This document shows positions 12,123-39,236 of a DNA stretch of 50,029 nucleotides, in pieces. Each line of letters opens with the position of its first letter. The stretch's first letter is position 1. The position numbers and the translations under genes were made by a program. The DNA is from Richelia sp. CSU_2_1. Lineage in GTDB: Bacteria; Cyanobacteriota; Cyanobacteriia; Cyanobacteriales; Microcoleaceae. The stretch is from contig JAAUPF010000028.1 in the NCBI GenBank assembly GCA_012034575.1, positions 1 through 50,029 of the forward strand, in the 5' to 3' direction. The notes beneath the pieces were generated by a model, which was given only the letters and a program-made list of their open reading frames with translations, made no database searches and had not been told where the DNA came from.

Positions 12123-13094
12123 ATGAAACGTTCAGCTTGTCTAATTTTCAATCCCGTAGCCGGCAACAGCGACCCCGATCGAGATTTGGCTGTAATTCGG
12201 GAAATTTTAGAACCTGCGATCGACTTGGACATTCGGATGACAACGCCGGAAATAGATGGCGATCGAATTGCCCGCGAAGCAGTTTCTAGAGGGGTAGAAT
12301 CAATCATTGCTTCCGGGGGAGACGGCACATTATCAGCAGTTGCAGGTGCGATCGTCGGCACTAATATTCCTTTAGGAATTATCTCGCGGGGAACTGCCAA
12401 TGCTTTTGCCAATGCTTTAGAACTTCCCAATACAATTGAAACCGCTTGCGAAACAATTTTGGGAGGGTTCACGCGGGTGGTGGATGCGGCAATTTGCAAC
12501 GGAGAAATGCCGATGGTTTTGCTAGCAGGAGTCGGCTTTGAAGCAGAAACAGTGGAATTAGCCGATCGCGAAATGAAAAATCGCTGGGGAATGCTGGCTT
12601 ACATTTTGTCAGGAATCAAACAGTTAAATAACTTGGAAAGATTTGAAGCGGAAATCGAAACCGAAGATAAAATTGTCAGCCTGACGGCGGCGGCGGTAAC
12701 TGTGGCAAATGCGGCACCGGCTACTTCAATTTTAGCTCAAGGGCCGGCAGGAATTATTGTTGATGATGGTTTGCTGGATATTACCTTAGTTGCACCTCAG
12801 ACCAAAGCAGGGGCGATCGCGGCTTCCTATCACTTACTGCAAACAGCTTTAAGCGGCAATGCAGTCGATCGCGATGACATCGGTTATTTGCGGGCGAGAA
12901 AGGTAAAAATTACCACAGATCCGCCTCAAAAAGTTGTTTTAGATGGGGAAATTATCGGCATGACGCCGCTGTTTGTGGAGTGCGTACCGGGGGGATTAAC
13001 TATTTTTGTACCGCGAGTTGAAGAAGAACCTCCGGTAGAAAAGCTTGAGGGTTTACCTGACGTTCAAGTCGTGTCGAAAACAGTTGACAGTTGA
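12123..13094 (+). CDS. YegS/BmrU-type lipid (diacylglycerol) kinase family protein
   Basis: The 323-residue protein has the DAGK catalytic-domain pattern: CLIFNPVAGNSDPDRDL at the start, IIASGGDGTLSAVAGAIVGTNIPLGIISRGTANAFANALELP (the GGDGT nucleotide loop and the GTxNxFA motif), and a C-terminal beta-sandwich with IIVDDGLLDITLV and VVLDGEIIGMTPL. The family phosphorylates lipids such as diacylglycerol or phosphatidylglycerol; the substrate here is not known. The start codon is immediately preceded by a heptamer array and lacks a ribosome-binding site. The last three codons and the TGA stop are made of another heptamer array (CAGTTGA units), so the native C-terminus has probably been rewritten slightly. 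Confidence 0.85.
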   Translation: MKRSACLIFNPVAGNSDPDRDLAVIREILEPAIDLDIRMTTPEIDGDRIAREAVSRGVESIIASGGDGTLSAVAGAIVGTNIPLGIISRGTANAFANALELPNTIETACETILGGFTRVVDAAICNGEMPMVLLAGVGFEAETVELADREMKNRWGMLAYILSGIKQLNNLERFEAEIETEDKIVSLTAAAVTVANAAPATSILAQGPAGIIVDDGLLDITLVAPQTKAGAIAASYHLLQTALSGNAVDRDDIGYLRARKVKITTDPPQKVVLDGEIIGMTPLFVECVPGGLTIFVPRVEEEPPVEKLEGLPDVQVVSKTVDS

Positions 13095-13157
13095 CAGTTG
13101 ACAGTTGACAGTTGTCATGAGTAATTAGTTATTAGTCATTGGTCATTGGTCATTAGT
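13081..13157. repeat. CAGTTGA array followed by GGTCATT array
   Basis: Five CAGTTGA units (13081-13115) are followed after a short spacer by GGTCATT/AGTCATT units (about 13131-13157). The first array encodes the end and stop codon of the lipid kinase gene. Confidence 0.85.
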
Positions 13158-13169
13158 CCGATCGTTTCA

Positions 13170-13366
13170 GATAAAATAGACATCATTGCTGTAGGGGCGG
13201 GTTCGCCAATATACTTAACAGAAACAAACAAGTTTGTAAACCCGCCCCGGCCTCTAATCGAGGTTTAACGATAAGATAAAATAGATCTCATTGCTGTAGG
13301 GGCGGTTCGCCAAGATATTTAACAGAAACGAAAAAGTTTGTAAACCCGCCCCGGTCTTGAATCGAG
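13170..13366. repeat. Tandem pair of 95-bp palindromic repeats
   Basis: Two copies (13170-13263 and 13275-13366) share GATAAAATAGA, TTGCTGTAGGGGCGG, TTCGCCAA, AACAGAAAC and GTTTGTAAACCCGCCCCGG, with scattered differences. In copy 1 GGGGCGGGTT (13194-13203) pairs with AACCCGCCCC (13239-13248). No coding function is apparent; they lie between the lipid kinase and the Uma2 remnant, and a half copy of another repeat follows at 13457-13482. Confidence 0.75.
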
Positions 13367-13590
13367 TTCGATCGATCGACGCGATCTAATATTAAGTTCG
13401 ATCGAACGATCGCCATCCGATTAAAAAGTAGTGAGAAATTCAAGCCGTCACATATTGCGGACTGAAGTCCTCCTTACAAACCTGCCGATTGCGACAGCAG
13501 GGGGAGGAAATCGATCGGAGATAATATCAAACTATTATGCGATCGAGTCATGTTAAAATTATAAAAAGCGATAAACAAACATCAATCAAA

Positions 13591-14153
13591 ATGAGCTTAA
13601 TTGCAGATAAATGGACGATTAAATGGACGATCGCCGAATATCATAAAATGATATCTGCTGGCATCTTAGAAAATCGGCGGGTGGAACTGCTGAAGGGAGA
13701 AATTGTAGAAATGGCACCGGAAGGAGAACCCCACGCTTATTTTAGCAGCGAAGCAGGAGAATATTTAATCCGATTGTTGGGCGATCGGGCGACTATTCGT
13801 TCGGCAAAACCGATTGCACTGCCCGACAATTCCGAACCAGAACCGGATATTGCGATCGTACAGCGGTTGGGCCGCGAATACCTCGAACACCACCCTTACC
13901 CAGAAAATATTTTTTGGTTAATCGAATACTCCGATTCCACCTTAGCTAAAGATTTGGAGACAAAAACCAAAATTTACGCTGAAGCCGGCATCCCCGAATA
14001 TTGGGTAGTTCACCTAAAAACAGATATCTGATAATATTTCGAGATCCCCAAGATGGCGATTACGCTTCTAAGGTGACGTTAAGGACGGGAACGGTGAACC
14101 CGCTAGCATTTCCAGATGTGGCAGTACCGGTCAGCGCGATCGTCCGAGAATAA
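13591..14153 (+). pseudogene. Uma2-family (DUF820) endonuclease-like gene, frameshifted
   Basis: From the ATG at 13591 the frame gives WTIAEYHKM, GILENRRVELLKGEIVEMAPEGEPHA, SEPEPDIAIV, IEYSDSTLAKDLETKTKIYAEAGIPEYWVV, the PD-(D/E)XK-like pattern of Uma2 proteins, then hits TGA at 14029-14031. The -1 frame from about 14028 continues the family sequence (LIIFRDPQDGDYASKVTLRTG, NPLAFPDVAV) to TAA at 14151-14153. Loss of a single base near 14025 therefore truncates the protein by about 40 residues. Most putative catalytic residues lie upstream of the break. The N-terminus also has a 12-bp tandem duplication giving KWTIKWTI. An upstream ATG at 13537 is less likely because relatives start at the MSLIADKWT position. 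Confidence 0.75.
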
Positions 14154-14295
14154 GCGATAGTAAAGATTTCATGTACTAATTGCCAAAACGCAAGGGCGAT
14201 CGTCCAAAATTTATAGGAAAATAGTCGATCCAGCCGCCGGCACGCTCCACCTTTGAGAAACCACCAGAATAGTAAATTCTAACAGAGACACAGCT

Positions 14296-15780
14296 ATGGG
14301 AAAACCCACAGGTTTTATTGAATTCTTGCGCGAATTGCCCTCAGAACTCTCACCCGTCGAAAGAGTTCGCAATTGGGATGAATTTCACTTGCCGATGGAG
14401 GAAGACAAACTCCGCACCCAAGGCGCGCGCTGCATGGATTGCGGCACTCCCTTCTGCCACACCGGTGCTATCATCAGCGGCATGGCAAGCGGCTGCCCCA
14501 TCAACAACCTCATCCCCGAATGGAACGACTTGGTATATCGCGGGCTGTGGCAAGAAGCCCTCGACAGACTCCACAAAACTAACAACTTCCCCGAATTCAC
14601 CGGCAGAGTCTGCCCCGCCCCCTGCGAAGGCGCTTGCGTGCTCGGCATCAACAACCCGCCGGTGACAATTAAAAACATCGAAGCATCAATTATCGATAAA
14701 GGCTGGGATGAAGGCTGGGTAAAACCCGAACTTCCCGCCAAACGCACCGGCAAAAAAGTCGCAATTATCGGTTCCGGGCCTGCAGGTTTGTCCGCAGCCG
14801 CCCAACTCAACAAAGCAGGCCACACTGTCACAGTATACGAAAGGGCCGATCGACCGGGCGGGCTGTTGATGTACGGCATCCCCAACATGAAGTTGGACAA
14901 GGAACAAGTTGTCATGCGCCGCCTCAAACTTCTCGAAGCTGAAGGCGTGAACTTCGTTTGCAACACCGAAGTCGGCAAAGACTTGCCAGCAGAACAACTG
15001 CTAAAAGAATACGACTCTGTTGTCCTCTGTACCGGTGCCACCAAACCCCGCGACTTGGGCATCCCCGGCCGCGAGTTAAAAGGCATCCACTTCGCGATGG
15101 ACTTTTTGACAGCCAACACCAAAACGCTTTTAGACAAGAGTACCAACGGCAATTTCATCTCTGCAGAAGGCAAAGATGTCGTAATTATCGGCGGGGGCGA
15201 CACCGGGACTGACTGCGTGGGCACCTCCATCCGCCACGGCTGCAAAAGCTTGATCCAGCTAGAAATCCTGCCCAAACCGCCGGCAGAACGTGCGGCCAAC
15301 AATCCCTGGCCCGAATGGCCGAAAGTCTACCGCTTGGATTACGGCCAAGAAGAAGCCGCAGCCAAATTTGGCGATGACCCCCGCGGCTACCTCACCACGG
15401 CGACCAAGTTTGAGGGCGACGAAAACGGCAATGTCAAAGCCGTGCACACCGTCGAAGTGGAGTGGGAGAAAAACGAGAAAGGACAGTTCATTCCCAAACA
15501 CATTCCCGGTACGGAGAAAGTTTTGCCGGCGCAACTCGTGTTGTTGGCGATGGGCTTTTTGGGGCCGGAACAGCCGCTGTTGGATGCTTTGGGATTGGAA
15601 CGCGACGCTCGCAGCAACGTGAAAGCCGAACACGAAAAGTATGCAACTAGCCTTCCGGGTGTGTTTGCGGCCGGGGATTGTCGTCGGGGACAGAGTTTGG
15701 TGGTGTGGGCGATTAACGAAGGGCGCGGTGTGGCGCGGGAGTGCGACCTTTATTTGATGGGCGAAACTGATTTGCCTTAG
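14296..15780 (+). CDS. gltD: Glutamate synthase small subunit (NADPH-type, GltD)
   Basis: The 494-residue protein matches the beta subunit of NADPH-GOGAT, which passes electrons from NADPH to the large subunit to make glutamate from glutamine and 2-oxoglutarate. The N-terminal iron-sulfur cysteines are seen in [21 protein letters not shown] and [12 protein letters not shown] (about residues 45-118). The FAD-binding [13 protein letters not shown] lies near 158, the NADPH-binding [15 protein letters not shown] near 300, and the C-terminal [21 protein letters not shown] is the second FAD contact. Length is normal for the family. No gltB is within this window, so the gene is separated from its partner by at least the adjoining TnpB and membrane-protein genes downstream. 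Confidence 0.93.
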
Positions 15781-15846
15781 TTGGTAAGGGTTGCGCGTTA
15801 AGGTCGCAGAAACCGGGTTTTTTACCAAAAATTTGGGTTGAAAGCC

Positions 15847-15863
15847 CCGTCGTTCTACGACGG
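15847..15863. mobile_element. Left-end hairpin of a decayed IS200/IS605 element
   Basis: CCGTCGT (15847-15853) and ACGACGG (15857-15863) form a 7-bp stem with a TCT loop, about 65 bp before the TnpB start. IS200/IS605 elements carry subterminal hairpins that their transposase recognises, and this position and size fit the left one. Confidence 0.5.
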
Positions 15864-15928
15864 CTTTTCCACCAGCCGTGCTAAAATAGATGCCGTCCGA
15901 GCCAAATAACGACTATAACGACCCAACT

Positions 15929-16213
15929 ATGCTGGTATTCGAGGCCAAACTTGAGGGAGTGAAACCGCAGTACGATAAGCTTGATGAAGCGATTCGTACC
16001 GCTCGTTTCATCCGCAATTCTTGCCTGAGATACTGGATGGATAATCGAAACATCGGACGGTACGATCTGAGTGCATATTGTGCTGTTTTGGCGCAAGAAT
16101 TTGCTTGGGCCTCCAAGCTTAACTCTCAAGCGAGACAAGCTAGTTCTGAAAGAGCATGGAGCGCCATTGCTAGATTCTTCGATAATTGCAGAAAAAAACA
16201 GCGTCTTAACTGA
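15929..16213 (+). pseudogene. TnpB (IS200/IS605 OrfB) N-terminal fragment
   Basis: About 95 residues match the start of TnpB: MLVFEAKLEGVKPQYDKLDEA, RTARFIRNSCLRYWMDN, SSERAWSAIARFFDNCRKK. TnpB is an RNA-guided nuclease of about 400 residues; the RuvC and zinc-finger parts are absent, as the frame ends at 16213 and only about 160 bp of unrelated-looking sequence separates it from the hairpin cluster. An in-frame ATG at 15890 is possible but relatives begin at MLVFEAK. The fragment is presumably inactive. Confidence 0.75.
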
Positions 16214-16370
16214 CTACGTTATTTTGGTCACGACACCCTGTGGATGCTTTCGCTAGTCCCTTGCTCTGTCGTTTGCAGTTAAACAGTTTTAAAGTCACGC
16301 TCAACAGTGCTGCAAGCCTAACAAGCCTTAATAACATTGGCGAAGCAAACTTTACTCGAAAGAGAAAACC

Positions 16371-16484
16371 GGAGGGCAACCATACCCTCCACCCCGCAAG
16401 GGGATTCAAGGCGGTTGAAACCGCCGAGTCGTTTCCCTCTCAGGTCTAAAGACTCGCTCGTTTCCCACTTACCGAGTTTTTTTT
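16371..16484 (+). ncRNA. Hairpin cluster at IS200/IS605 right end (possible omega-RNA remnant)
   Basis: Four consecutive stem-loops are visible: GGAGGG/CCCTCC (16371-16390), CCCC-GCAA-GGGG (16392-16403, a GNRA tetraloop), GGCGGT-TGAA-ACCGCC (16410-16425), and GAGTC/GACTC (16426-16455). A run of eight T follows at 16477-16484. In TnpB elements the right end encodes the guide-scaffold (omega) RNA. Position downstream of the tnpB fragment and the dense folding fit that, but no alignment supports it. Confidence 0.4.
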
Positions 16485-16499
16485 ATGATGATTCAGGAC

Positions 16500-18878: not shown

Positions 18879-18919
18879 GGTGCAGGCAACTTATCCAAAA
18901 TATGCCCCACTAACGGTTT

Positions 18920-19016
18920 GTAGTGGGGAAGGAAGAGGGAAGAAGGAGTCGGGATTCAGGAGGAAGAAGCAAGAAGAAAAATAACTGTCAACTGTCAACT
19001 GTCAACTCTCAACTAT
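18920..19016. repeat. Purine repeats and AACTGTC array after the M23 gene
   Basis: GGAAGAG/GGAAGAA-like repeats (about 18920-18980) are followed by AACTGTC/AACTCTC/AACTATC units (18983-19016). On the minus strand these read ATAGTTGAG, AGTTGAC and begin directly after the stop codon of the M23 peptidase gene. Confidence 0.8.
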
Positions 19017-20849
19017 CTACCTGCTTGCTTGCTTTTGAATTTTCGGTTTCGCTACTTCGCTATTTTTAGATTTGACAGTATCAGTTTTTAACAGTTCCGG
19101 GAATGGGGGTTGGAGGTTGACAACTTCGATGTCCATTCCCACCGGCAAAGGAGGGAGTTGAGGAAGGTCACTTTCCAAATCTTTGAGACTGTTGCCGTTT
19201 GGGGCTGGCAAGATTTTCGGCATTTCCGGTACTTTAGCGGTTTGCAAAGTGCCGAGCATTCTGGCTAAAGCGAATTCTAGCTGAGAGCCAGGGTCGATCG
19301 CCACCCAACCCCGATCGGTCATTTGCCGGATCTCGAAGTGCAAGTGAGGCCCGGTGGACATTCCGGTACTGCCGACGCGCCCGATGGTTTCTCCCTGTTT
19401 GACAAACTCTCCCGGTTTCACAAACAATTCCGAAAGGTGGGCGTAGAGAGTTTCTTGAGACTGTTGGTTGTGATTGAGAACTACTGTCAAACCGTAGCCG
19501 CCCAACCAATCCGCGATTGCGACTTGGCCTGCATAGGCCGCCAGCACCGGCGTCCCCAGGGGAGCTCCCAAGTCGGTTCCGGTGTGAAATCTGCCGTAGC
19601 CCATCACTGGATGCACCCGCCAGCCGAAGGGCGAAGTAATTGCCGAAGCAATCGACAGGGGGAACAGCAAGCTGGTGTTGCCGTTTCCTGCCAGGCCAGC
19701 AGGCCGTTGCGTGAGATTGTAATAAGCTGAAGCCGTGCTGCTGCCGCTCGTAACGGAAATCGGCGCGACGGGAATCGGTCCGAATCCCATGCTGGGCGCG
19801 AATGCTGAGCCACCTCCCCCGCCGTAGTATGCAGCGGAGGCGGGATCGCTGCTGTTACCCGAGTATGCCACAGGGGAGCCGGGGAAGTCAGCCGCATAAG
19901 CCGGTTGTCCGTAACCGGGCGGTGGCGGGGCTTGCTGCCCCCAAAGCTGGCCTCCTATTTGCTGGACGGCTTGACCGACTGCACCTGCAATGCTTTCGGC
20001 TGCGTTGCCTGCTGGGACATTGCCGTTAACCCTGCCAACAGTATTGCCTCCAAGATAGGGGGCATTCTTAGCAGCAGTATTGCCACCAACATTATTAGTC
20101 CCAGAAGTAGGAGGGGAAGCGATATAGCCGCCGCCTGCGATCGGATTTTGAGGGCTGTTGCTGTCGGAGCCTCCACCTGAGGCCACAGGCGCGGAATCTG
20201 TACCACCGCACCAAGAGCCAACGCTTTGTCCGGATTCTAAGACGGTTTGGCAGCCGGTCGATCGTTCTGCAAATTCTACTGCTGTGGGGGAATCGTAGCC
20301 GTTGGTAGCGCCGAGACTGTAGTCCGTGCTGTCGATGTAAGCGTTGGCGGGGTTGATGGGCGCTTCAAAAGGAGGTTCGGGTTCCTGGGCCGTCGGTGCC
20401 GGTAGGGGAATGAGTTCCGGTTCTGGCAGGTAATAATCCGGGGCTGCAGGTGCTGCGGCTGCGGGAGGTTCGGGAATGTACTCGGGTTCCGGAGCCGGTG
20501 CGATATATTCAGGCTCTGGCGCAATTTCAGCAGGCGGTGCGGCGTAGGTCTCCGGTTCTGGCTCCGGGGGTGCTGCTGCTTCGACAGGGGGCGGTTCCGG
20601 GTTGGCAGGTGGTGTTAATTCAAATACTGGCTCGGGTTCGGCGGGTATTGTCAGTTCTGCTGCTGGGGTTTCGGCTTGGGCCCAAACTATACCTTTGCTG
20701 AGCATTCCCAGGCTGGCGATACAGCTCAATCCTACCAGCAGGGATCGATCGGACAACAGGCGCTTGCGATTCCGAATGGTTGTAGGGTGATTTTTTGACG
20801 GTTTGGCATCGAACTCGGCGGTGTTTTGCTGGTCTGAAACTGGTTTCAC
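19017..20849 (-). CDS. M23-family peptidoglycan metallopeptidase with Pro/Glu-rich linker
   Basis: The 610-residue protein starts with a charged cytoplasmic segment and one hydrophobic stretch (SLLVGLSCIASLGMLSKGIVWAQA, about residues 35-58), a signal peptide or anchor. Residues 65-170 are Pro/Glu/Ala-rich, then a Gly/Ser-rich region to about 385. The LytM/M23 domain near 405-525 carries the zinc ligands in FHTGTDLGAP (His, Asp) and GPHLHFEIR (His-x-His), with SPFGWRVHPV before and YAHLSELFVKPGEFVKQGETIG between. It should cleave peptide cross-links of the cell wall in the periplasm. The stop codon TAG is immediately followed by a heptamer array. The gene is divergent from pgeF. Confidence 0.9.
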   Translation of the reverse strand: MKPVSDQQNTAEFDAKPSKNHPTTIRNRKRLLSDRSLLVGLSCIASLGMLSKGIVWAQAETPAAELTIPAEPEPVFELTPPANPEPPPVEAAAPPEPEPETYAAPPAEIAPEPEYIAPAPEPEYIPEPPAAAAPAAPDYYLPEPELIPLPAPTAQEPEPPFEAPINPANAYIDSTDYSLGATNGYDSPTAVEFAERSTGCQTVLESGQSVGSWCGGTDSAPVASGGGSDSNSPQNPIAGGGYIASPPTSGTNNVGGNTAAKNAPYLGGNTVGRVNGNVPAGNAAESIAGAVGQAVQQIGGQLWGQQAPPPPGYGQPAYAADFPGSPVAYSGNSSDPASAAYYGGGGGSAFAPSMGFGPIPVAPISVTSGSSTASAYYNLTQRPAGLAGNGNTSLLFPLSIASAITSPFGWRVHPVMGYGRFHTGTDLGAPLGTPVLAAYAGQVAIADWLGGYGLTVVLNHNQQSQETLYAHLSELFVKPGEFVKQGETIGRVGSTGMSTGPHLHFEIRQMTDRGWVAIDPGSQLEFALARMLGTLQTAKVPEMPKILPAPNGNSLKDLESDLPQLPPLPVGMDIEVVNLQPPFPELLKTDTVKSKNSEVAKPKIQKQASR

Positions 20850-25837: not shown

Positions 25838-26128
25838 ATGGATACAATTAAGCGACTGGAAATAATTGTCCCTGCCATCGAACTCAAACCTGTCCTGAAA
25901 CTAATTGAAAAGATGGGAATTAATAAGTACAATATCATCCGTCACGTCATCGGGCGAGGGGAGTTTGGTGAATCTAGTGATGACCTCGACGATCGCTTAA
26001 GTAACGTTTATATCTTAACTACTTGTTTAGCCGGACAGGAAGATACCCTGTTCTTAGAATTGCAGCCAATCATGGAAAAGTTTGGCGGTATGTTTTTAGT
26101 GTCAGATGCAGTTGGCTATCGGTGTTGA
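25838..26128 (+). CDS. sbtB: PII-like regulator SbtB
   Basis: The 96-residue protein follows sbtA and has the PII-like ferredoxin fold: IKRLEIIVPAIELKPVLKLIEKMGINKYNIIRHVIGRGEFGESSDD, then NVYILTTCLAGQEDTLFLELQPIMEKFGGMFLVSDA. SbtB binds adenine nucleotides (cAMP, ATP, ADP) and controls SbtA. It ends in VGYRC without the CGPEGC-type redox extension described in some SbtB proteins. The stop TGA (26126-26128) is at the very edge of a nine-unit TTGATAG array, so the short C-terminus may result from array insertion; this is inference, since some native SbtB proteins are also short. Confidence 0.92.
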   Translation: MDTIKRLEIIVPAIELKPVLKLIEKMGINKYNIIRHVIGRGEFGESSDDLDDRLSNVYILTTCLAGQEDTLFLELQPIMEKFGGMFLVSDAVGYRC

Positions 26129-26129
26129 G

Positions 26130-26195
26130 TTGATAGTTGATAGTTGATAGTTGATAGTTGATAGTTGATAGTTGATAGTTGATAGTTGATAGTTG
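26130..26195. repeat. Nine-unit TTGATAG heptamer array
   Basis: Nine uninterrupted copies of TTGATAG start one base after the sbtB stop codon. It is the most regular array in the window. Confidence 0.95.
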
Positions 26196-27541: not shown

Positions 27542-28249
27542 CTAGAAAAATAAATGACTTTCCGGCTGAATATTAATCTCCAACGGCACAGCTTGCGGTT
27601 CAGAAGTAAGAGCAAACATAATAGCATTAGCAGCAGTTTCGGTGCTCAACATTTTTGACCTATCTACCTTTAAACTTACGTTATCCCAAAACGGAGAATT
27701 CACGCCGCCAAAGTAGAACAGGGTAAATTTAATGCCGTAACGTCGCAACTCATCTGCCATGCACTTGCTAAAACCAACCGCCCCAAACTTTGAAGCGCAA
27801 TAAGCCGTTCCCATCGCCATCGAATGCTTGCCTAAAATCCCGATGACATTGCAAATGTGACCGGATTTGCGATCTTTCATGATATTAGCAGCGGCTTGAC
27901 AGGTGTAAAAACTACCTTTTAAATTTAAGTCAAGCATGGCGTCTAAATCGGCCGGTTCTAATTTGTTCCACTGCTTGAGAATTCCCGCACCGGCTGCATT
28001 TACCAAGGCATCAATTTGTCCGAAATGCCCCGCTGCTTTCTGCATCAATTCCTCAACTTGCTGCAAGTCGGTAATATCTGTTGGCACGCACAGTACATCT
28101 GTTGCGGGCAATTCACTAGCTAAAGCTTGCAAACGGCTGCTGTCTCTAGCTGCGAGTACCAGCGTCGCACCCTCGCCTGCGAGTCTGCGGGCTACCGCTG
28201 AACCGATACCGCCTGTCGCACCCACTACAACCACAACTTTATCTTGCAT
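27542..28249 (-). CDS. Short-chain dehydrogenase/reductase
   Basis: The 235-residue protein has the classical SDR motifs: VVVVGATGGIGSAVARRL (cofactor-binding TGxxxGxG), VNAAGAG (NNAG motif variant), an active-site YCASKFGAVGFSKCMADELRRYG with Tyr-xxx-Lys, and FYFGGVNSPFW after it. The Arg at the end of the second strand (LAARDS) favours NADP(H). The substrate is unknown. A purine-rich heptamer array starts about 40 bp upstream of its start codon. Confidence 0.9.
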   Translation of the reverse strand: MQDKVVVVVGATGGIGSAVARRLAGEGATLVLAARDSSRLQALASELPATDVLCVPTDITDLQQVEELMQKAAGHFGQIDALVNAAGAGILKQWNKLEPADLDAMLDLNLKGSFYTCQAAANIMKDRKSGHICNVIGILGKHSMAMGTAYCASKFGAVGFSKCMADELRRYGIKFTLFYFGGVNSPFWDNVSLKVDRSKMLSTETAANAIMFALTSEPQAVPLEINIQPESHLFF

Positions 28250-28567
28250 TGCCCTTTACATTTCTTTACATCCAGTTTCCATGATAGCAGAAGGAAGGAA
28301 GAAGGAAGAAGGAAGAAGGAAGAAGGAAGAAGGAAGAGGGAAGAGGGAAGAAGGAAGAGGGAAGAGGGAAGAGGGAAGAAGGAAGAGGGAAGAGGGAAGA
28401 GGGAGAGAATTACCAACTGTCAACTGTCAACGAAGAGGGCGGGCACGGGGGCACCCCCTCCGCTTCGCTTCGCCCCTACCAACTCAAAACTCAAAACTCA
28501 AAACTTTTCTTCAACTGGTAACTCAAAACTCAAAACTCAAAACTTCCGAACAACTATCAACTATCAA
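28250..28567. repeat. Composite heptamer arrays between SDR and NYN genes
   Basis: GGAAGAA/GGAAGAG units run about 28291-28405 (roughly sixteen copies), then CAACTGT units, CAAAACT units in two blocks (about 28482-28506 and 28521-28544), and CAACTAT units (about 28553-28570) that enter the stop codon of the next minus-strand gene. No gene is present. Confidence 0.9.
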
Positions 28568-29977
28568 CTATTTCAAACCAACCAGCCAACCTTTTTCGGT
28601 TTTTTTAAGCTGGAGAGAACTGCAAGATTCCAAAAATTTAGGGAACTTTCTACCCAAATTGAATTCTTTAATAATTTGCGTGATTTGTTTGGCGTACAAC
28701 CTGTGAAATTCACTGCCGACATTGGACAGAAATACATATTTTTCGCGAGAAGTAGTAGTTAAATTTCTAACTATATTTACCAACGCAGATTCCAAGTCTT
28801 GAAGAGAGTTAATTTCATTGAGGATCGCTGCCGGATCGTCCGCACTGTTATCGCTGTTTTCTTTGCTAATTACTGGCGGTTCTGGCGACAACTTGACTTC
28901 AAAAAGAGTGACGTAAGTGTGAGAAATTGGGGAAGGTTTGTGCAGGACAAATTCCGCCGGATATTTGAGAAATATATCCTTGGTTTTATTACCGAGCGAA
29001 TGGTGAATTGCCAGTTGATTGAGGGCTAAACCGTAGTTTTCCCTAAAAAGAGCTGAAATTCTCGCAAGTTTGATCCACTGAGTTGATGTGCGTTCTTGCT
29101 CGTTTTTGATTAACTCTTTTAACTGAAATGGCAATGTTTCCAAAGGGGGTAATTCAAGTGCTCCGGGAAGTGAATGCGTTTCAATTTGCCCGGTGCGGCT
29201 GTTTAAAACCACGATTTTATCTATTTGTTTGCGAACTTGATACACTGTTAATCCGTGGGCTTGCAGTGTATTGCTGAGGTGCGTCAGAGCTCGATCGGAC
29301 GAACAAACAAAAATTTCCTTGGCTGTGGGATAATGTACGAAAATCGAGGCTCCGACAGTTGCCATTTTTAAATCGGCGCTGTCTTTTCCTGGGGGAACGT
29401 GAATCAGTTGATAGCCGCGCTGGTGAAATTCGGCATCTTTTTTGCCCATGCTGCGCCAATTGGCAAAGGCAACTTTGATTTGAATCGGATAAGTGCAAAT
29501 TCCTTCGAGGAATTTTTCGGTTTCGATTTTGAGTTGCAAGTTTTCGACATCTAGCAACAAGATAGCGATGCCAATAGGAACCGATGCTGGGCTATCGGCT
29601 GGCGGATTGGAGGTGACTGAGTTGTTCGATTTAGCTGCTGCTGTTGCTATTTTGGATTCGGCAAATTGCTGAAGCTTGGCAAATAATTTGCTGAATTGAG
29701 CGGAGTTGGTAAACTCGGGAGATAGCAGAATTTGCAAGTATTTTTTGGCAGCCTGGGGTAGCGAATCTGTATCGATCGCTACTTTAAGACCTTTTGTCAA
29801 TTTTCCAATCAAAATAGACTGAAATTCAGGTTTCTCCCAGGGGGTTTTCCTGTACTTTTCAGCTATCCATTCGGGGTGCCGTGCTTGAATGGCAACAATA
29901 GTTTGATAAATATAGCGACTGATGGCACTGACTGCGGCAGATTCTTGAGTCGCCGGCAAGAAAGTTCGATCGGGCAT
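28568..29977 (-). CDS. NYN-LOTUS (OST-HTH) domain protein, copy 1
   Basis: The ATG at 29977 is chosen over a TTG at 30007; it gives 469 residues. The first 150 residues are helical and unrecognised. Then GIAILLLDVENLQLKIETEKF, VAFANWRSM, HVPPGKDSADLKM and IFVCSSDRALTHLSNTLQAHGLTVY form a NYN (PIN-like) nuclease domain with conserved Asp residues. C-terminal to it are two winged-helix segments (WIKLARISALFRENYGL... and YVFLSNVGSEFHRLYAKQI..FPKFLESC) typical of LOTUS/OST-HTH RNA-binding domains. A role in RNA binding or cleavage is inferred. The gene is paralogous to 35909-37318. The TAG stop is part of a heptamer array. Confidence 0.8.
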   Translation of the reverse strand: MPDRTFLPATQESAAVSAISRYIYQTIVAIQARHPEWIAEKYRKTPWEKPEFQSILIGKLTKGLKVAIDTDSLPQAAKKYLQILLSPEFTNSAQFSKLFAKLQQFAESKIATAAAKSNNSVTSNPPADSPASVPIGIAILLLDVENLQLKIETEKFLEGICTYPIQIKVAFANWRSMGKKDAEFHQRGYQLIHVPPGKDSADLKMATVGASIFVHYPTAKEIFVCSSDRALTHLSNTLQAHGLTVYQVRKQIDKIVVLNSRTGQIETHSLPGALELPPLETLPFQLKELIKNEQERTSTQWIKLARISALFRENYGLALNQLAIHHSLGNKTKDIFLKYPAEFVLHKPSPISHTYVTLFEVKLSPEPPVISKENSDNSADDPAAILNEINSLQDLESALVNIVRNLTTTSREKYVFLSNVGSEFHRLYAKQITQIIKEFNLGRKFPKFLESCSSLQLKKTEKGWLVGLK

Positions 29978-32341: not shown

Positions 32342-32478
32342 GCAGAAGGCAGAGGGGGAGAGTGGGGAAGGGGGAGAGGGAGAGAGTGGGAGATTGGGAG
32401 AGGGGGAGAGTGGGAGAATTACCAATTACCAATTACCAATTACCAATTCCCAACTATCAACTGTCAACTGTCAACTAT
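32342..32478. repeat. G-rich, TTACCAA and AACTGTC arrays in the pstA-pstB gap
   Basis: GGGGGAGAG-like units (32342-32417), four TTACCAA units (about 32420-32447) and AACTGTC/AACTATC units (about 32453-32478) fill the intercistronic gap. On the operon's sense strand the last array begins right after the pstA stop codon. Confidence 0.85.
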
Positions 32479-33459: not shown

Positions 33460-33461
33460 GT

Positions 33462-34463
33462 TCAATTCTTAGCTCCCTTGACGCCGATTAGCTGCACCAA
33501 CAATACTGCGATCGCATTTACGCAGAGAGTAATCACAAATAGAATTAGCGCTAAATACATCAAAGATCCGATGTGCAGCGGTTCCAATGCTTCCCGAAAT
33601 TGACTTGCCAAAACAGCGGGAATTGAGTAGCTGGGAGCTAACAAAGATGAGTTGATTTGAATCGAGTTGCCAATTACCATCGTGACGGCCATTGTTTCCC
33701 CTAAAGCGCGTCCCAATGCTAAGATAGTTGCTCCGATAATTCCCGAACTTGCTGCCGGCAATAACAGCTTGAATATCGTTTCCCAGCGAGTAGCGCCGAG
33801 GGACATGGAAGCACTGCGCAATTCAACAGGAACCGACAGCAATACATCGCGGCTGATGGCGGCTACTGTTGGCAAAATCATAATCGATAAAAGTACACCA
33901 GCAGGTAGCATTCCCGGTCCTAAAGGTTCGCTGCCAAACAGGGGAAACCAATTGAATTTGTCGAACAACCACTGTTGAATTGGCAGCAAAAAAGGAATCA
34001 AGACAAAGATTCCCCACAGGCCAACTATGACGCTGGGAATGGCCGAGATTAATTCAACCATGAATCCCAAGGGCGATCGTACCCAAATTGGCAAAAAGTT
34101 TTCGCTCGTAACTATAGCGACTGAAAGCCCTAAAGGAATTGCTAGAATAATCGCGATCGCAGAACTAACCAGCGTGCCGTATATAAATGGTAAAGCCCCA
34201 AATTGCAACTCTCCAATATCCCATTTAGGACTCCACAAAAATTGCGCTCCAAATTGGCTAATTGCCGGCCAAGCATCTTTAGAAATTATTCCGCTCATCC
34301 AGAACAGCACGGCCGCTGTTCCCAGGGCAAAAGCCCATACAAGTATTGTAAATCCTGACTCCAACCACAAACCTTCACCAGACGTATCTGTCAAATCTAC
34401 GTGGGTGTCTATCGTTGCAGGTTTACGAGTCAATTTTTTCGGTTTCTTTGAAGGATTGGTCAT
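33462..34463 (-). CDS. pstC: Phosphate ABC transporter permease PstC
   Basis: The 333-residue inner-membrane protein has a charged N-terminal tail (1-40), then six helices. YGTLVSSAIAIILAIPLGLSVAI, ISAIPSVIVGLWGIFVLIP and the EAA loop VELRSASMSLGATRWETIFKLLLPAA are typical of PstC. It pairs with PstA. It follows pstS with a 226-bp gap that contains a strong hairpin, and is tightly coupled to pstA downstream. Confidence 0.94.
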   Translation of the reverse strand: MTNPSKKPKKLTRKPATIDTHVDLTDTSGEGLWLESGFTILVWAFALGTAAVLFWMSGIISKDAWPAISQFGAQFLWSPKWDIGELQFGALPFIYGTLVSSAIAIILAIPLGLSVAIVTSENFLPIWVRSPLGFMVELISAIPSVIVGLWGIFVLIPFLLPIQQWLFDKFNWFPLFGSEPLGPGMLPAGVLLSIMILPTVAAISRDVLLSVPVELRSASMSLGATRWETIFKLLLPAASSGIIGATILALGRALGETMAVTMVIGNSIQINSSLLAPSYSIPAVLASQFREALEPLHIGSLMYLALILFVITLCVNAIAVLLVQLIGVKGAKN

Positions 34464-34635
34464 ACCCGATTATTCCTTACATAGTGAAATGTTCGATCGC
34501 GGGATCGGTAGAATTAGTTACCAGTTATCTAGGCGAGGACTTTCGCTTTGAAACCGGAATTTAAATCCCTGTCGGACTGCCCGGAAATCGCGTATTTCCG
34601 GACATAAATGCACCGTGAATTTTAATATACAAATT

Positions 34636-34671
34636 ATGAGTTTTGAGTCCTATATGAAACTCAAAACTCAT
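34636..34671 (-). terminator. Hairpin between pstS and pstC (attenuator or mRNA stabiliser)
   Basis: ATGAGTTTTGAGT (34636-34648) pairs perfectly with ACTCAAAACTCAT (34659-34671), a 13-bp stem with a 10-base loop. On the minus (sense) strand it lies 18 bases after the pstS stop and is followed by AATTTGTATATT. Such structures commonly make the binding-protein mRNA more abundant than that of the permeases. Confidence 0.6.
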
Positions 34672-34689
34672 AACTCCTAAAAGCCAGAA

Positions 34690-35718
34690 TTAACCTTTAG
34701 CAACCACACTCTGATTGACTGTTTGAACCACCCTTTGAGCCGTAGCTTGAGGAATCCGAGTAAACTCTAATTGCTGGTTGATACCTTGACCTGTAGTCAT
34801 CACCCAATTAACCATCTTTTTAATAGCCTCTGCTTTCGCAGCAGGATACTGTTTGTAGATTAACAGCCAAGTCAAACCGACGATCGGATATCCATCATTA
34901 GGATTCCCTTCAACCAAGAGGAAGTTTGCCGGGAATGTTTCCCCTGCAAAAGCTTTGTTAGCTTCTGCCAAACTAGGATCTACAAACCGACCAGCTCTAT
35001 TTTGAATAAATGCTGTTTGGAGGTTGTTTTGCCGAGCAAAAGTATCTTGAACGTAGCCGATAGCACCCGCTGTTTGTCTCACCAAACCAGCTACACCGGG
35101 GTTTCCTTGACCGCTGAGAGGGCTTCCCGGCCAACTCGGTTGAGTAGCAGCCTTAATACTGCTGCCAATCGCCTGCAAATGGTTAGTAAAAATAAAGCTA
35201 GTACCGCTGCTATCTGCCCGCACAACTGTCCGAATAGGAGTATTTGGCAAGTTTTTAGCTTGTCCGGCGATTCCTGTTAATTGAGGAGCATTCCAACGGG
35301 TAATTTTGCCTTCAAAAATACCTCTGAGTGCCTCGCGAGTCAGTCGCACATTGCTGACTCCAGGCAAGTTGTAAACTACAGCAACCGCACCGCCGGCTGT
35401 CGGCACTGACACGACGCCGCGTTGTACTTGAGCCATTTGTGCGGCAGTCATCGGCGCATCGCTACCCGCGAAGTCAACCGTGCCTGCAATTAATGCTCGG
35501 ATACCGGCACCGCTGCCCGTTCCTTCATAGTTTACGGTAATGCCCGTGGCACTTCTCATTTGGGAGAAATAGCGATCGTACAGAGGCTTGGGAAAAGTGG
35601 CTCCCCCGCCATTTAACGTAACGGCTGCTACCGCAGAACTAATCAAACTCAGCGAAAATGCTGCTACCGCTAGCGTAACTATAAAAGTACGTCGCCAGCG
35701 TTTAGTGAAGAAAACCAT
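34690..35718 (-). CDS. pstS: Periplasmic phosphate-binding protein PstS
   Basis: The 342-residue protein has a signal peptide (RWRRTFIVTLAVAAFSLSLISSAVA, cleaved near residue 32) and PstS motifs: TLNGGGATFPKPLYDRYF, NYEGTGSGAGIRAL, VDFAGSDAPM and RADSSGTSFIFTNHLQA, which contact phosphate. There is no lipobox Cys, so it is a soluble periplasmic protein. A GAGGAG ribosome-binding site precedes the ATG. It is the first gene of pstSCAB; two PHO-box arrays lie 100-200 bp upstream, so phosphate starvation control is expected. Confidence 0.95.
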   Translation of the reverse strand: MVFFTKRWRRTFIVTLAVAAFSLSLISSAVAAVTLNGGGATFPKPLYDRYFSQMRSATGITVNYEGTGSGAGIRALIAGTVDFAGSDAPMTAAQMAQVQRGVVSVPTAGGAVAVVYNLPGVSNVRLTREALRGIFEGKITRWNAPQLTGIAGQAKNLPNTPIRTVVRADSSGTSFIFTNHLQAIGSSIKAATQPSWPGSPLSGQGNPGVAGLVRQTAGAIGYVQDTFARQNNLQTAFIQNRAGRFVDPSLAEANKAFAGETFPANFLLVEGNPNDGYPIVGLTWLLIYKQYPAAKAEAIKKMVNWVMTTGQGINQQLEFTRIPQATAQRVVQTVNQSVVAKG

Positions 35719-35818
35719 AACTCCTCATCCTCAATTAATCGATCGCAAATTTTGCAAATCTACGACCTAGGATAGACTGAAATTCCCAAGTAAAAACCTA
35801 TAAAAAGATAAGCTTGTT

Positions 35819-35844
35819 TTAAATTTTGGTTAACGTTAGATTAA
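35819..35844 (-). promoter_or_regulatory. Proximal PHO box upstream of pstS
   Basis: TTAA occurs at 35819, 35830 and 35841, exactly 11 bp apart. On the minus strand the units read TTAATCTA, TTAACCAA, TTAAAACA with 3-bp spacers, the form described for cyanobacterial SphR/PhoB sites. TATAGG (minus strand, 35797-35802) lies about 16 bp further on and could be the -10. Confidence 0.75.
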
Positions 35845-35875
35845 TTTTTTAATAGTTAAGGAATGGCTATAAAAA

Positions 35876-35912
35876 TTAATTTTATTTTAAAATTTGGTTA
35901 AATTTAGATTAA
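35876..35912 (-). promoter_or_regulatory. Distal PHO box (four units), overlapping a stop codon
   Basis: TTAA occurs at 35876, 35887, 35898 and 35909, exactly 11 bp apart. On the minus strand the units are TTAATCTA, TTAACCAA, TTAAAATA, TTAATTTT. The first three nearly duplicate the proximal box (26 of 30 bases identical). The first unit contains the TAA stop (35909-35911) of the NYN gene. Confidence 0.7.
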
Positions 35913-37318
35913 CAAAACTGGGTGGGAGCGATCGCCACTTGATGTTCCTTACCGCTTTTCTTAACTTTTAATCCGGGACAAGACTGCAAAAAATCGAGAA
36001 AACTGCCGTTTAAATGCAGGGATTTCATTTTTTTAGTAATTGGTTGACCGTATTGCTTGTGAAATTCGCCGGCTACCAGAGGAATCGAAATATAACCGCC
36101 TGGAGATTTAGCAGTTAACCCTTGGATAATTTTGGCTACAGATGCTTCGAGTGCGGGAGAGGAATTAGTTTGTGCTGCGGAAGATTTGCGAGCGATCGCC
36201 ACTTGATGTTCGCTCCCGATTAATGTCACTTGAAACACCGAAGTACGCGACTGCAAAAATTTTATCAAACTGGAATTAGCTAAAAATCGTTTGACAACCA
36301 TATCGGCATGATGCTGGTATGTATTGAAAAATATCTTTTTAAGTTTTACAATAGAAATAGCATCGGCTTTCGACTCCACTATCTCCGCTTCGATCGTTTT
36401 TAAAAGGATCTTTTCTAAAGCATCCAGCGAATCAATAGCAACTGCCTTAGCAGGTACGGTTTCTGGCAATTTCTGGGCTTCAATATTTTGAGCGTGGCAC
36501 ACAGGAGTTGCAGGTTCTTTTACCGCTGGGGTAATTTCTTGTTGGGCTGGCGGGAAAAATCCTGTATTGGTGGAAGTTAGAGCAGGGAATTCGAGAGCGT
36601 GACGTTCTTGAAAAAGCTCGGCTACACTATAAAACCTAGCTATTCGATCGTCTATAGATTTGCGTTCTGCCTGCAACAACTCGGCAATTTGATTTGCCAG
36701 TTCGGGAAAAGTAGGAATTGCCATTTCCCGATCGCAGGCATAGTGATTGGTATCGCCAGTTCTAAGATTTTCTACAGACAAAATAGCATTTTGCCGCTGC
36801 ACCCGAAACACAGTCAATCCCTGATTTTGCAATTGATTGCAAAGGTGATTTAACAAACCGTCCGAAGAACAAACAAAAACTTGTTTGACATCCCGATAGC
36901 GGTATAAAATAGCAGCACCAAAAGCAATCATTTTACCGTCAGCGCTGTTAGCACCGCCCGGAACGTGAATTAGTTCGTAACCGCGATCGTACAATTCGGC
37001 ATCCAGCTTGCCCGTACTCGAACTTTTCCAATTAGCAAAAGCAATTTTCACTTGCAGGGGATAGTCGCACAAACCGGCTAAAAACTTTTCTGCATTAACG
37101 TCAAGTTTTAAATTTTCTGCATCTAACAGCAAAATTGCTATCCCCCGATCGAACTCTGCGCTAGTTCCAGGGGCGAAAGTACGATCGTTGCAGCCCCTAC
37201 TTGAAAGGGATTGAGGCTGAAAACCTTGTTGGCGGGAAGCTTGGGGCGCATCAAACGGCAGACTGCGGAAACGACGGGTGTTGCGAAATCGATCGGGCGA
37301 ACGTCGGGGATTTTTCAT
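35909..37318 (-). CDS. NYN-LOTUS (OST-HTH) domain protein, copy 2
   Basis: The ATG at 37318 is chosen; the longer frame to 37816 is the antisense shadow of ubiD. The 469-residue protein has an Arg-rich N-terminus (KNPRRSPDRFRNTRRFR), a NYN domain (GIAILLLDAENLKLDVNAEKF, VAFANWKSS-like KIAFANWKSS, HVPGGANSADGKM, VFVCSSDGLLNHLCNQLQNQGLTVF), and two C-terminal LOTUS/OST-HTH-like repeats, each ending in a near-identical EHQVAIA motif (SLIKFLQSRTSVFQV.. and SFLDFLQSCPGLKVKK..). The conserved Asp of DAEN and of SSDG fit a PIN-like nuclease centre. RNA metabolism is inferred. Its stop codon lies in a PHO box of pstS; it is divergent from ubiD. Confidence 0.8.
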   Translation of the reverse strand: MKNPRRSPDRFRNTRRFRSLPFDAPQASRQQGFQPQSLSSRGCNDRTFAPGTSAEFDRGIAILLLDAENLKLDVNAEKFLAGLCDYPLQVKIAFANWKSSSTGKLDAELYDRGYELIHVPGGANSADGKMIAFGAAILYRYRDVKQVFVCSSDGLLNHLCNQLQNQGLTVFRVQRQNAILSVENLRTGDTNHYACDREMAIPTFPELANQIAELLQAERKSIDDRIARFYSVAELFQERHALEFPALTSTNTGFFPPAQQEITPAVKEPATPVCHAQNIEAQKLPETVPAKAVAIDSLDALEKILLKTIEAEIVESKADAISIVKLKKIFFNTYQHHADMVVKRFLANSSLIKFLQSRTSVFQVTLIGSEHQVAIARKSSAAQTNSSPALEASVAKIIQGLTAKSPGGYISIPLVAGEFHKQYGQPITKKMKSLHLNGSFLDFLQSCPGLKVKKSGKEHQVAIAPTQFC

Positions 37319-37397
37319 TAACTTACGATCGTAGCTTAACTTTATGGTGGCCGATCGCCCCATAATAAAATAACTACACTTAACAATTCTTAAAAAA

Positions 37398-38906
37398 ATG
37401 GCTAGAGATTTGCGGGGATTCCTAAAGCTGCTGGAAGAAAGGGGACAACTGCGCCGGATTAGCGCCTTAGTCGATTCCGACTTAGAAATTGCCGAAATTT
37501 CCAACCAAATGCTGCAAAAAGGCGGCCCCGGCTTGCTGTTTGAAAACGTCAAAGGGGCAGAATTCCCCGTCGCCATCAACCTGCTGGGTACGGAGGAACG
37601 AGTTTGCTGGGCGATGAATATGGAAAAGCCGATCGAACTAGAAGAGCTCGGTAAAAAATTGGGAATGCTGCAACAGCCGAAACCGCCGAAAAAGATTTCC
37701 CAAGCTGTAGAATTTGGCAAAGTCTTGTTTGACGTAGTGAAAGCCAAACCGGGGCGCGACTTTTTCCCGGCGTGCCAGCAAGTGGTGATTGAACCAGAAG
37801 GCTTAGACTTAAACAAAATTCCGATGATTCGCCCCTATCCGGGAGATGCGGGCAAAATTATCACCCTCGGTTTGGTAATTACTAAAGATTGCGAAACCGG
37901 CACGCCAAATGTCGGCGTTTATCGCTTGCAATTGCAGTCAAAAAATACCATGACTGTCCACTGGCTATCAGTCAGAGGGGGCGCGCGCCACTTGCGAAAA
38001 GCTGCGCAAGCGGGTAAAAAGTTGGAAGTTGCGATCGCCCTCGGTGTTGACCCACTCATCATTCTCGCAGCAGCAACTCCCATTCCCGTAGACTTATCCG
38101 AATGGTTATTTGCCGGACTTTATGGCGGTTCCGGCGTGAGTTTAGCCAAGTGCAAAACAGTAGATTTAGAAGTACCCGCAGACTCGGAAATCGTATTAGA
38201 AGGAACGATAACTCCCGGTGAAGTTTTGCCCGACGGGCCTTTTGGCGATCACATGGGTTATTACGGCGGTGTGGAAGATTCCCCGCTAGTGCGATTCCAC
38301 TGCATGACGCATCGGAAAGATCCGATTTATCTGACCACATTTAGCGGGCGGCCGCCGAAAGAAGAAGCAATGATGGCGATCGCGCTGAATCGGATTTATA
38401 CTCCTATTTTGCGGCAGCAAGTATCGGAAATTGTCGATTTCTTTTTACCGATGGAAGCGCTAAGTTACAAAGCAGCAATTATCTCCATTGATAAAGCTTA
38501 TCCCGGTCAAGCGCGTCGGGCTGCTTTAGCATTTTGGAGTGCGCTACCGCAGTTTACTTACACCAAGTTTGTGATTGTTGTAGATAAAAGTATCAACATT
38601 CGCGATCCGCGTCAAGTAGTGTGGGCAATTAGTTCTAAAGTTGACCCGGTGCGGGATGTATTTATTTTGCCGAATACGCCCTTTGACACGTTAGATTTTG
38701 CCAGTGAAAAACTCGGTTTGGGGGGCAGAATGGGAATTGATGCGACTACGAAAATGCCGCCGGAAACCGAGCACGAATGGGGTGAAGTTTTGGAATCCGA
38801 TCCGGATGTGGCGGCGATGGTAGAAAGGCGTTGGGCGGAGTATGGATTGGCCGATTTAAATTTGGGAGAAATCGATCCGAATTTGTTTGGCTATGAGATG
38901 AGGTAA
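37398..38906 (+). CDS. UbiD-family decarboxylase
   Basis: The 502-residue protein matches UbiD (prenylated-FMN-dependent 4-hydroxybenzoate-type decarboxylase): MARDLRGFLKLLEERGQLRRI, NVGVYRLQLQSKNTMTVHW, PIPVDLSEWLFAGLYGGSGVSLAKCKTVDLEVPADSEIVLEG, GPFGDHMGYYGG (holding the conserved acidic region) and VPMMA-like later segments (HCMTHRKDPIYLTTFSGRPPKEEA). In cyanobacteria this enzyme acts on 4-hydroxy-3-prenylbenzoate in plastoquinone synthesis. It is divergent from the NYN-LOTUS gene across 79 bp. The TAA stop is followed by TTGATAG-like units. Confidence 0.88.
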   Translation: MARDLRGFLKLLEERGQLRRISALVDSDLEIAEISNQMLQKGGPGLLFENVKGAEFPVAINLLGTEERVCWAMNMEKPIELEELGKKLGMLQQPKPPKKISQAVEFGKVLFDVVKAKPGRDFFPACQQVVIEPEGLDLNKIPMIRPYPGDAGKIITLGLVITKDCETGTPNVGVYRLQLQSKNTMTVHWLSVRGGARHLRKAAQAGKKLEVAIALGVDPLIILAAATPIPVDLSEWLFAGLYGGSGVSLAKCKTVDLEVPADSEIVLEGTITPGEVLPDGPFGDHMGYYGGVEDSPLVRFHCMTHRKDPIYLTTFSGRPPKEEAMMAIALNRIYTPILRQQVSEIVDFFLPMEALSYKAAIISIDKAYPGQARRAALAFWSALPQFTYTKFVIVVDKSINIRDPRQVVWAISSKVDPVRDVFILPNTPFDTLDFASEKLGLGGRMGIDATTKMPPETEHEWGEVLESDPDVAAMVERRWAEYGLADLNLGEIDPNLFGYEMR

Positions 38907-39236
38907 ACAGTTGATAGTCGATCGTTGACAGTTGATAGTTGAGAGAGATCGCGCGTGTTATCTAATAGGTAAGGTACATAGAGATCGTAGGTAGGGACAC
39001 GGCACTGCCGTGTCCTTGGGGGATTGTCGGATAAGCGAGCCTACTTCATTAACTGAACCTTAAAAGTCAGCGAAAAATATAAAAATGCGCTGCGGGAACT
39101 TGCTAAATGAGCGAACCATTTTGGATAATCGCGCTTTTGCGCTGCGACAGAGAAACCGGGTTTTTTTCTGAGTCTTTGCGCTGCGATGAATATGCTCGAA
39201 AAAACTCGGTTTTTGGGCTACGATGCTTAAGTTATA
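38907..39236. repeat. Intergenic region with three repeat families
   Basis: TTGATAG/TTGACAG units (38909-38945) abut the ubiD stop. A copy of the GTAGGGACACGGCACTGCCG repeat lies at 38967-39058 (other copy 316-410). A copy of the AGAAACCGGGTTTTT palindrome lies at about 39140-39227, directly ahead of the next gene. No gene is seen. Confidence 0.75.

Follow-up and report, generated by a model that had tools for sequence, protein, structure and literature searches.

We analyzed the intergenic spacers of a 50,029-nucleotide (nt) stretch of the Richelia sp. CSU_2_1 genome (contig JAAUPF010000028.1, assembly GCA_012034575.1), hereafter the window, together with further stretches of the same genome and of other genomes, and found that tandem heptamer arrays in these spacers have a fixed polarity with respect to the flanking genes. 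Of the two repeat strands, the one with more G runs 5' to 3' outward from the gene edge, and 302 of 359 arrays in the sampled part of the genome obey this rule. The two sides of a spacer point toward each other, and the polarity fades toward the spacer middle. Relatives fill the orthologous spacer with different heptamers of the same polarity. These arrays form part of a general class of repeats with a 7-bp unit that resemble the short tandemly repeated repetitive (STRR) sequences and fill unconstrained intergenic DNA; such heptamers have long been known in cyanobacteria, and there is no accepted explanation for their step of seven or for their placement. A reading of the window from its sequence alone (the sequence-only reading) had noticed arrays of TTGAYAG (Y, C or T) abutting six stop codons in one orientation and considered an all-frame translational stop among the explanations. 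The pattern seems to concern how intergenic gaps get filled rather than a stop signal, and we lean towards the view that the polarity would arise at the DNA level, anchored at the gene edge, during the birth or growth of arrays, rather than through translation.

The sample of the window's genome (G000) comprises 1,241,418 of 7,272,175 bases (the window plus L031-L110), about one sixth of the total. Several of its first-batch contigs were picked for holding matches, as were stretches of G028, a genome from another family of the same order; a third genome, G008, belongs to the same genus as G000. Genes were taken from a home-made hexamer-based caller and not from annotation (996 genes in the G000 sample), and their start positions are approximate. 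Counts of G versus C omit units in which the two are equal (25 of 384 in G000). One spacer may hold several arrays, and a count of one array per spacer is given beside the count of all arrays. A reversed-sequence control for the pattern search was discarded, because TTGAYAG is mirror-symmetric and its reversal gives the identical repeat.

At a cut-off of at least 21 bases, the G000 sample contains 106 TTGAYAG arrays, of which three are intragenic, six have no neighbour on one side and were dropped, and 97 were counted. The 5' end of the array's TTGAYAG strand is the end closer to the gene edge in 89 cases and the 3' end in 8 (p 2e-18). Among stop-facing arrays, 54 overlap the stop codon or lie 0-10 nt after it in the sense orientation, by their 5' end, versus 2 in the antisense orientation, by their 3' end; among start-facing arrays, 20 overlap the start or lie within 10 nt of it by the 5' end versus none by the 3' end. 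The 69 arrays that lie wholly within spacers, with no gene overlap, were also assigned a random position and orientation in their own spacer in 10,000 permutations. Contacts by the 5' end within 10 nt number 25 at stops (4.2 expected) and 17 at starts (1.9 expected), and neither number was reached in any of the 10,000 permutations. In both G008 and G028 the 5' end is nearer to the edge in 16 arrays and the 3' end in 2, and the permutation in G008 gave 7 contacts within 10 nt at stops (0.44 expected) and none at starts. An orientation bias and an enrichment at stop codons beyond expectation, on which the sequence-only reading had staked its claim, are thus both present in the sampled sixth of G000 and in G008.

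The same polarity is found in many heptamer families. Period-7 arrays of at least 2.5 units number 471 in the 1.24 Mb, compared with 37 of period 6 and 13 of period 8 (periods 4 and 5: 395 and 79). As in STRR sequences, these 471 are tandem direct repeats of 7 bp, and the class is mainly intergenic, with 3 of the 106 TTGAYAG arrays inside called genes. The rule is obeyed by 196 of 230 arrays in tandem spacers, 64 of 77 in convergent spacers and 42 of 52 in divergent spacers of G000, and by 183 of 207 when one array is taken per spacer. Across these spacers, the ratio of arrays with more G than C on the plus strand to those with more C than G shifts from 88:3 in the first fifth to 27:27 in the middle fifth and 4:97 in the last. 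Among spacers with arrays in both halves, none has both against the rule (0/45 in G000, 0/12 in G008 and 0/11 in G028). With all period-7 families included, 77 of 86 arrays obey in G008 (11 of 12 in its convergent spacers) and 61 of 76 in G028.

Within 40 nt of the edge, with rotations merged and G000 and G008 combined, the outward to inward ratios are 81:2 for ACAGTTG, 37:0 for AAGAAGG, 20:2 for AGATTTT, 19:1 for AATTGGT, 17:1 for AGTTGAT, 17:0 for AATTGGG, 12:1 for AGTTTTG and 11:0 for AGTCATT. The outward strand is predicted by its G-C difference (logistic coefficient 2.07) and hardly by its A-T difference (0.09). Arrays with a G-C difference of 1 within 40 nt of the edge obey in 112 of 121 cases, and therefore strong G-runs are not required. 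Distance matters: 187 of 193 arrays obey at up to 20 nt from the edge versus 64 of 96 at more than 80 nt. The spacer DNA itself, after masking of the arrays, is slightly skewed in G000 (0.067 to -0.074).

The sequence-only reading had pointed out that the sense strand of a TTGAYAG array supplies stops in all frames and its complement none, which can be read directly from the sequence. Since every frame of TTGAYAG holds a TGA or a TAG, extension of an array into a gene necessarily terminates that gene, whereas the stop-free complement can be kept as coding sequence inside genes. Stop codons are indeed overlapped by 27 sense arrays and no antisense array, and start edges by 2 arrays in G000; all three intragenic arrays of the G000 sample read as the stop-free strand, as do 12 of 12 intragenic arrays among the matches listed for named genomes. 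Such a reading-frame filter explains the overlap class and the intragenic orientation, and MacGregor 2015 made the same point for TAACTGA. A stronger version would have the arrays placed or kept at gene ends as an insurance, since their sense strand stops translation in all frames, and the absence of start contacts in G008 beside its 7 stop contacts fits that version as well. As a cause of the orientation, however, it is not supported. Start codons are abutted about as sharply as stops, and the gene strand at start edges reads CTRTCAA, which gives no stops. AAGAAGG and AATTGGG carry no stop on either strand yet are fully polar, and in G000 the spacer halves with stop-less families follow the rule in 38 of 40 cases (tandem) and 10 of 11 (divergent); the rule also holds in divergent spacers, which no stop codon borders. 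Outside the overlap class the excess at stops over starts is unclear in G000 (25 versus 17 within 10 nt), and of the five sites with relatives to compare, four (NYN, pstA, M23 and ubiD) have the stop codon where the relatives have it. What remains of the stop-signal reading is that the stop-bearing strand alone runs into gene ends, and the insurance explanation is in our judgement very improbable.

Start-edge arrays can reach or enter the ATG (L068:2451-2481, L070:4795-4840 and L035:7469-7493, with CAACT[ATG] in the first two), so that there is no space for a Shine-Dalgarno sequence. In L077, two convergent genes have sense TTGAYAG arrays at both stops (11096-11136 and 11627-11655), facing each other across about 490 bp. 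The TTGATAG variant makes up 33 of 96 first, gene-proximal units, 54 of 288 middle units and 13 of 96 last units in G000 and G008; this excess is a possible hint at an age difference between the array ends, on numbers that are small once split by edge. Decay of the flanks does not clearly differ between the two ends (2.99 versus 3.37 matches of 7).

Selection could instead act on RNA at both edges, which would agree with the quadruplex view of Rehm 2015. Leaders would be kept G-poor and unstructured, with C-rich arrays before starts, and 3' ends would gain from RNA that is G-rich or structured, with G-rich arrays past stops. Quadruplex formation is published for GGGAATC/GGGGAYT (PMC4692102), cyanobacteria are described as lacking Rho (PMC13289151), and UUGACAG RNA is predicted to fold better than its complement (-10 versus -3.7 kcal/mol). 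Neither strand's fold is unusual, though, since 37 and 162 of 200 shuffles give folds as stable or better. No fold is predicted for either strand of AAGAAGG, which yet shows the 37:0 ratio, AGATTTT and AGTTTTG obey without G-runs, and divergent and convergent spacers of G000 obey alike. This explanation moreover requires two unrelated causes of like strength, and we consider it rather unlikely. Quadruplexes as the general cause were rejected, because several obeying units have no GGG. With the polarity set at the edge, and alike at starts and stops and for unrelated units, a simple translational or terminator function is unlikely to be its sole cause.

Comparison with relatives shows how the spacers were filled. 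The window region is largely syntenic within the genus, at about 75-90% identity. The spacer that follows the NYN gene is 83 nt long and array-free in four relatives (G018, G013, G002 and G015), and in most other relatives compared arrays occupy it, starting at or close to the stop codon and reaching a conserved leader before the next start. The stop-side heptamers are TTGATAG in the window, TTATTGG in G005, G008, G021 and G011, and AATGGGT in G014, and the side far from the stop holds C-rich arrays as read in that direction. G016, G004 and G009 have no array near the NYN stop, and the G020 spacer (1,256 nt) lies outside this comparison. The pstA spacer is 56 nt long and array-free in six relatives (G018, G013, G002, G020, G012 and G015). 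Across the syntenic region, ten spacer arms carry arrays in at least two genomes, and nine of the ten carry different families. With the nearest array taken per arm and genome, and G unequal to C, 38 of 45 observations obey the rule, and the seven exceptions all lie at least 105 nt from the edge. In the NYN spacer of G007 (L181), a short GACAGTTC stretch stands between GAGTTTT arrays and the AAAACTC arrays that come after them, which looks as though synthesis had doubled back.

The two arms of one spacer seldom carry the same family (2 of 51 in G000, where 6.0 are expected, and 0 of 13 in each of G008 and G028), and so the arms arise separately and are not copies of each other. This bears on the idea of a polar or palindromic mobile element, similar to a miniature inverted-repeat transposable element (MITE) or a REPIN, whose ends would be the heptamers. 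Composite spacers, inverted pairs and other dispersed repeats beside the arrays would suit such an element. The rarity of shared families on opposite arms and the different heptamers in orthologous spacers speak against it; neither a shared interior nor a target duplication was noticed in the spacers at three sites, without a formal search. We give a mobile element very little credence, the least among the explanations weighed here.

Reasons that lie in transcription or translation differ between starts and stops, and none is alike for convergent and divergent spacers; a DNA-level process is therefore proposed, and the polarity points to a directional one that acts in spacers. At all edges alike, a spacer break would be faced by the 3' end of the outward strand, on which ground we propose break and extension. 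Spacers would be broken repeatedly, the broken ends trimmed back to constrained DNA, the 3' ends would be lengthened, through slippage or templated extension, by G-biased 7-nt iterations, and the extended ends would be rejoined; the reading-frame filter would act on top, so that TTGAYAG may run into a gene end and its complement may persist inside genes. The specific step of 3'-end extension is tentative and to our minds somewhat doubtful. Chi sites are known for their G-rich sequence and their polarity on the 3'-ending strand. The arrays could be seen as Chi-like sites that limit resection, with outward G-rich strands halting nucleases that enter from a spacer break, so that bracketed genes survive. 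The polarity fits this, but the 17 families with at least two arrays that are mostly outward have no common motif that we could see, and we hold the Chi-like explanation to be improbable.

A bolder form of the break-and-extension proposal is a telomere-like signature, in which some activity at intergenic breaks would extend both 3' ends with G-biased 7-nt repeats, separately in each lineage and with many units, leaving head-to-head, G-outward arrays bounded only by selection. If it were true, the rule would be common to cyanobacteria, Xanthomonas and other phyla; we think it unlikely, if conceivable. The telomerase-like bacterial reverse transcriptase DRT10 synthesizes tandem-repeat DNA processively, its product being a protein-primed complementary DNA in phage defence (PMC12632851). 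Extension of this type would give a fixed strand polarity, as in the arrays described here; no link between DRT10 and chromosomal heptamers was found in this analysis. That such an enzyme exists makes the repeat-extension idea less far-fetched, and it gives no direct support.

Several observations weigh against a DNA-level, edge-anchored origin. No break, nuclease or polymerase was identified in this analysis, and the number of reverse-transcriptase genes is not correlated with the number of arrays (Spearman rho 0.15, p 0.49, 24 genomes; all RVT_1 matches, fragments included and not split by subfamily, against (TTGAYAG)x3 matches). Anchoring within 10 nt is not predicted by random breaks alone and needs repeated turnover. 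AGTCATT, with equal G and C, is polar at 11:0, which G content does not explain, and in the published TAACTGA repeats of Beggiatoaceae, also with G = C, the stop and start edges lack one common outward strand (PMC4679880). Period-3 and period-4 repeats obey in 63% of cases, a background that reflects a weak G skew at edges; the 12-13 nt repeats of array-poor relatives obey in 24 of 28 cases, but with orthologous copies included and this background present they do not count as independent evidence. In G028 the permutation gave 1 contact within 10 nt at stops (0.56 expected) and 2 at starts (0.42 expected), hence no stop enrichment there, and TTGAYAG counted once per spacer half obeys in only 10 of 16 cases, a weak result. 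Small subsets, partly not significant, are divergent spacers of G008 (4/7) and the convergent (10/17) and divergent (5/6) spacers of G028, and in G000 neither the stop-less families in convergent halves (6/8) nor the other stop-bearing families in divergent halves (14/20) reach significance. Arrays at tRNA edges, where translation could be told apart from DNA geometry, obey in only 3 of 4 cases, a tiny sample, and the Bacteroidota ratio of 9:3 among the matches listed is not significant (p 0.15).

In other taxa, the named-genome scan for (TTGAYAG)x4 gave at least 100 loci with 120 arrays, of which 12 are intragenic, 21 have no neighbour on one side and 87 were counted; 3 of the 100 loci are possibly not independent of G008. 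Among the matches listed, the ratio of 5'-nearer to 3'-nearer arrays is 41:4 in Oscillatoriales-like cyanobacteria, 19:3 in other cyanobacteria and 8:0 in other phyla, and 77:10 over all taxa. The complete 7.27-Mb G000 genome has 1,959 matches to (TTGAYAG)x3 (1,040 forward and 919 reverse, overlapping matches counted), and 23 genomes of the same genus have 8 to 1,348 each. The number of matches within this one genus (G000-G023) spans more than 200-fold, from 8 to 1,959, and increases with genome size (rho 0.55, p 0.005).

The nearest prior work in the literature searched, to which most subscription journals do not belong, is that of Rehm 2015 and MacGregor 2015. Rehm 2015 described the G-rich heptamers GGGAATC and GGGGA(C/T)T of Xanthomonas and Nostoc PCC 7120 as mostly intergenic quadruplex formers, whose G-rich strand lies within 50 bp after stop codons on the sense strand or within 50 bp upstream of open reading frames (ORFs) on the antisense strand; they are closer to the 5' neighbour whatever its direction, and inverted pairs occur (PMC4692102). 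The polarity reported there is the same rule as here, with the G-rich strand directed outward from the closest ORF at both kinds of edge. Unlike the heptamers of that report, TTGAYAG, AAGAAGG, AGATTTT and GAGTTTT lack GGG or GGGG runs (GGGAATT has GGG), many families obey together, and orthologous spacers are filled separately. MacGregor 2015 described TAACTGA repeats of Beggiatoaceae, cyanobacteria and Bacteroidetes, which are mostly intergenic and close to start codons, give all-frame stops in one orientation and overlap ORF ends by up to 18 nt; in Beggiatoaceae, 13 of 14 arrays that overlap an upstream ORF end are forward, as are most start-side ones (PMC4679880). TTGAYAG likewise gives stops in all frames in one orientation only and has a one-sided overlap class, but the unit is a different one, and the arrays lie at stops and starts, whereas the BOGUAY arrays lie mostly towards starts. 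The BOGUAY arrays that overlap upstream stops are forward, which departs from the outward rule.

The sequence-only reading had suggested that the link to stop codons and orientation may be undescribed. In part it is described: PMC4692102 gives the polarity for GGGAATC/GGGGAYT, and PMC4679880 gives the all-frame stops for TAACTGA; the rule for non-quadruplex or stop-less heptamers was not found in the literature searched. New here are the spacer-symmetric polarity for many families at once and the separate filling of orthologous spacers with different units of the same polarity, neither of which we found in print within that literature. The STRR units first described, by Mazel in 1990, were reportedly heptamers other than those found here. 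STRR sequences are mentioned as tandem 7-bp repeats between genes of filamentous cyanobacteria in PMC2670836, the excerpt of which, unlike the arrays described here, contains no mention of an edge polarity (PMC2670836).

In the window, all six arrays reported at stop codons are present with TTGAYAG on the sense strand, and Pfam matches fit the gene labels (DAGK_cat, Peptidase_M23, P-II, NYN with E 7e-6, BPD_transp_1 and UbiD); the names pstA and sbtB are labels of the sequence-only reading, for which Pfam gives BPD_transp_1 and P-II only. The stop codon was said to be part of the array in two genes, lipid kinase and NYN, as we also find; that of sbtB shares one base. At the other three (M23, pstA and ubiD) the array begins right after the stop, and it is imperfect near the stop at M23 and ubiD.

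The TTGACAG array at 13080..13114 (plus strand) contains the stop TGA (13092-13094) of the diacylglycerol/lipid kinase gene (12123-13094). The C-terminal end of the kinase reads ...SKTVDS* in the window versus ...QKIL* in G007, the array having taken the place of the gene's end. An AATTACC/AATTCCC array (12021..12123, minus strand GGTAATT) touches the kinase start codon, so that outward-pointing arrays stand at both edges of this gene. The TTGACAG array at 18983..19014 (minus) adjoins, with an imperfect unit, the stop (19017) of the M23 peptidase gene (19017-20756, minus); the stop position is the same in G007, G021 and G009, of which G021 has no such array. A TTGATAG array of 9.7 units (26128..26195, plus) shares the last base of the stop TGA (26126-26128) of the small PII-like sbtB gene (25838-26128), for which no ortholog was found among the relatives' stretches compared.

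The NYN gene (28568-29977, minus) has its stop TAG (28570-28568) inside the TTGATAG array at 28551..28571 (minus), at the same position as in relatives whose spacer is empty. At the opposite end of this spacer, a GAAGGAA array (28294..28409, plus), with no stop codon on either strand, points outward from the start of the gene at 27542-28249, and a short TTGACAG array (28414..28431, minus) lies mid-spacer between the two genes. The TTGAYAG array at 32451..32478 (minus) starts at the base directly after the pstA stop (32479), and a GGTAATT array (32417..32453, minus) is next outward from pstA. An interrupted TTGAYAG repeat (38907..38942, plus), with a longest perfect stretch of 19 nt (38924-38942), directly follows the ubiD stop (38906), whose position is the same in relatives that have no repeat. 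Two further arrays touch no stop, as had been stated. One of these (11139..11171, minus) stands in the complement orientation 19 nt before the start codon of the DUF3891 gene (11191-11919, plus) and is the start-edge half of the outward rule; the other, a related array with CAACTGC/CAACTGT on the plus strand (5281..5307, minus), is away from confident gene edges.

Other repeats accompany the TTGAYAG arrays. A GC-rich, hairpin-like repeat (GTAGGGGCG...GCCCGCCC) adjoins them at L067:7401 onward, at L041:2806 onward and at 28430-28480 of the window, and sometimes has TTGAYAG arrays on both sides. The ATCTGCGTTTATCTGCG repeat likewise adjoins TTGAYAG arrays elsewhere (L041:2191 onward). Just past the kinase array, the window contains a 104-bp tandem duplication with 89% matches (13169-13366).

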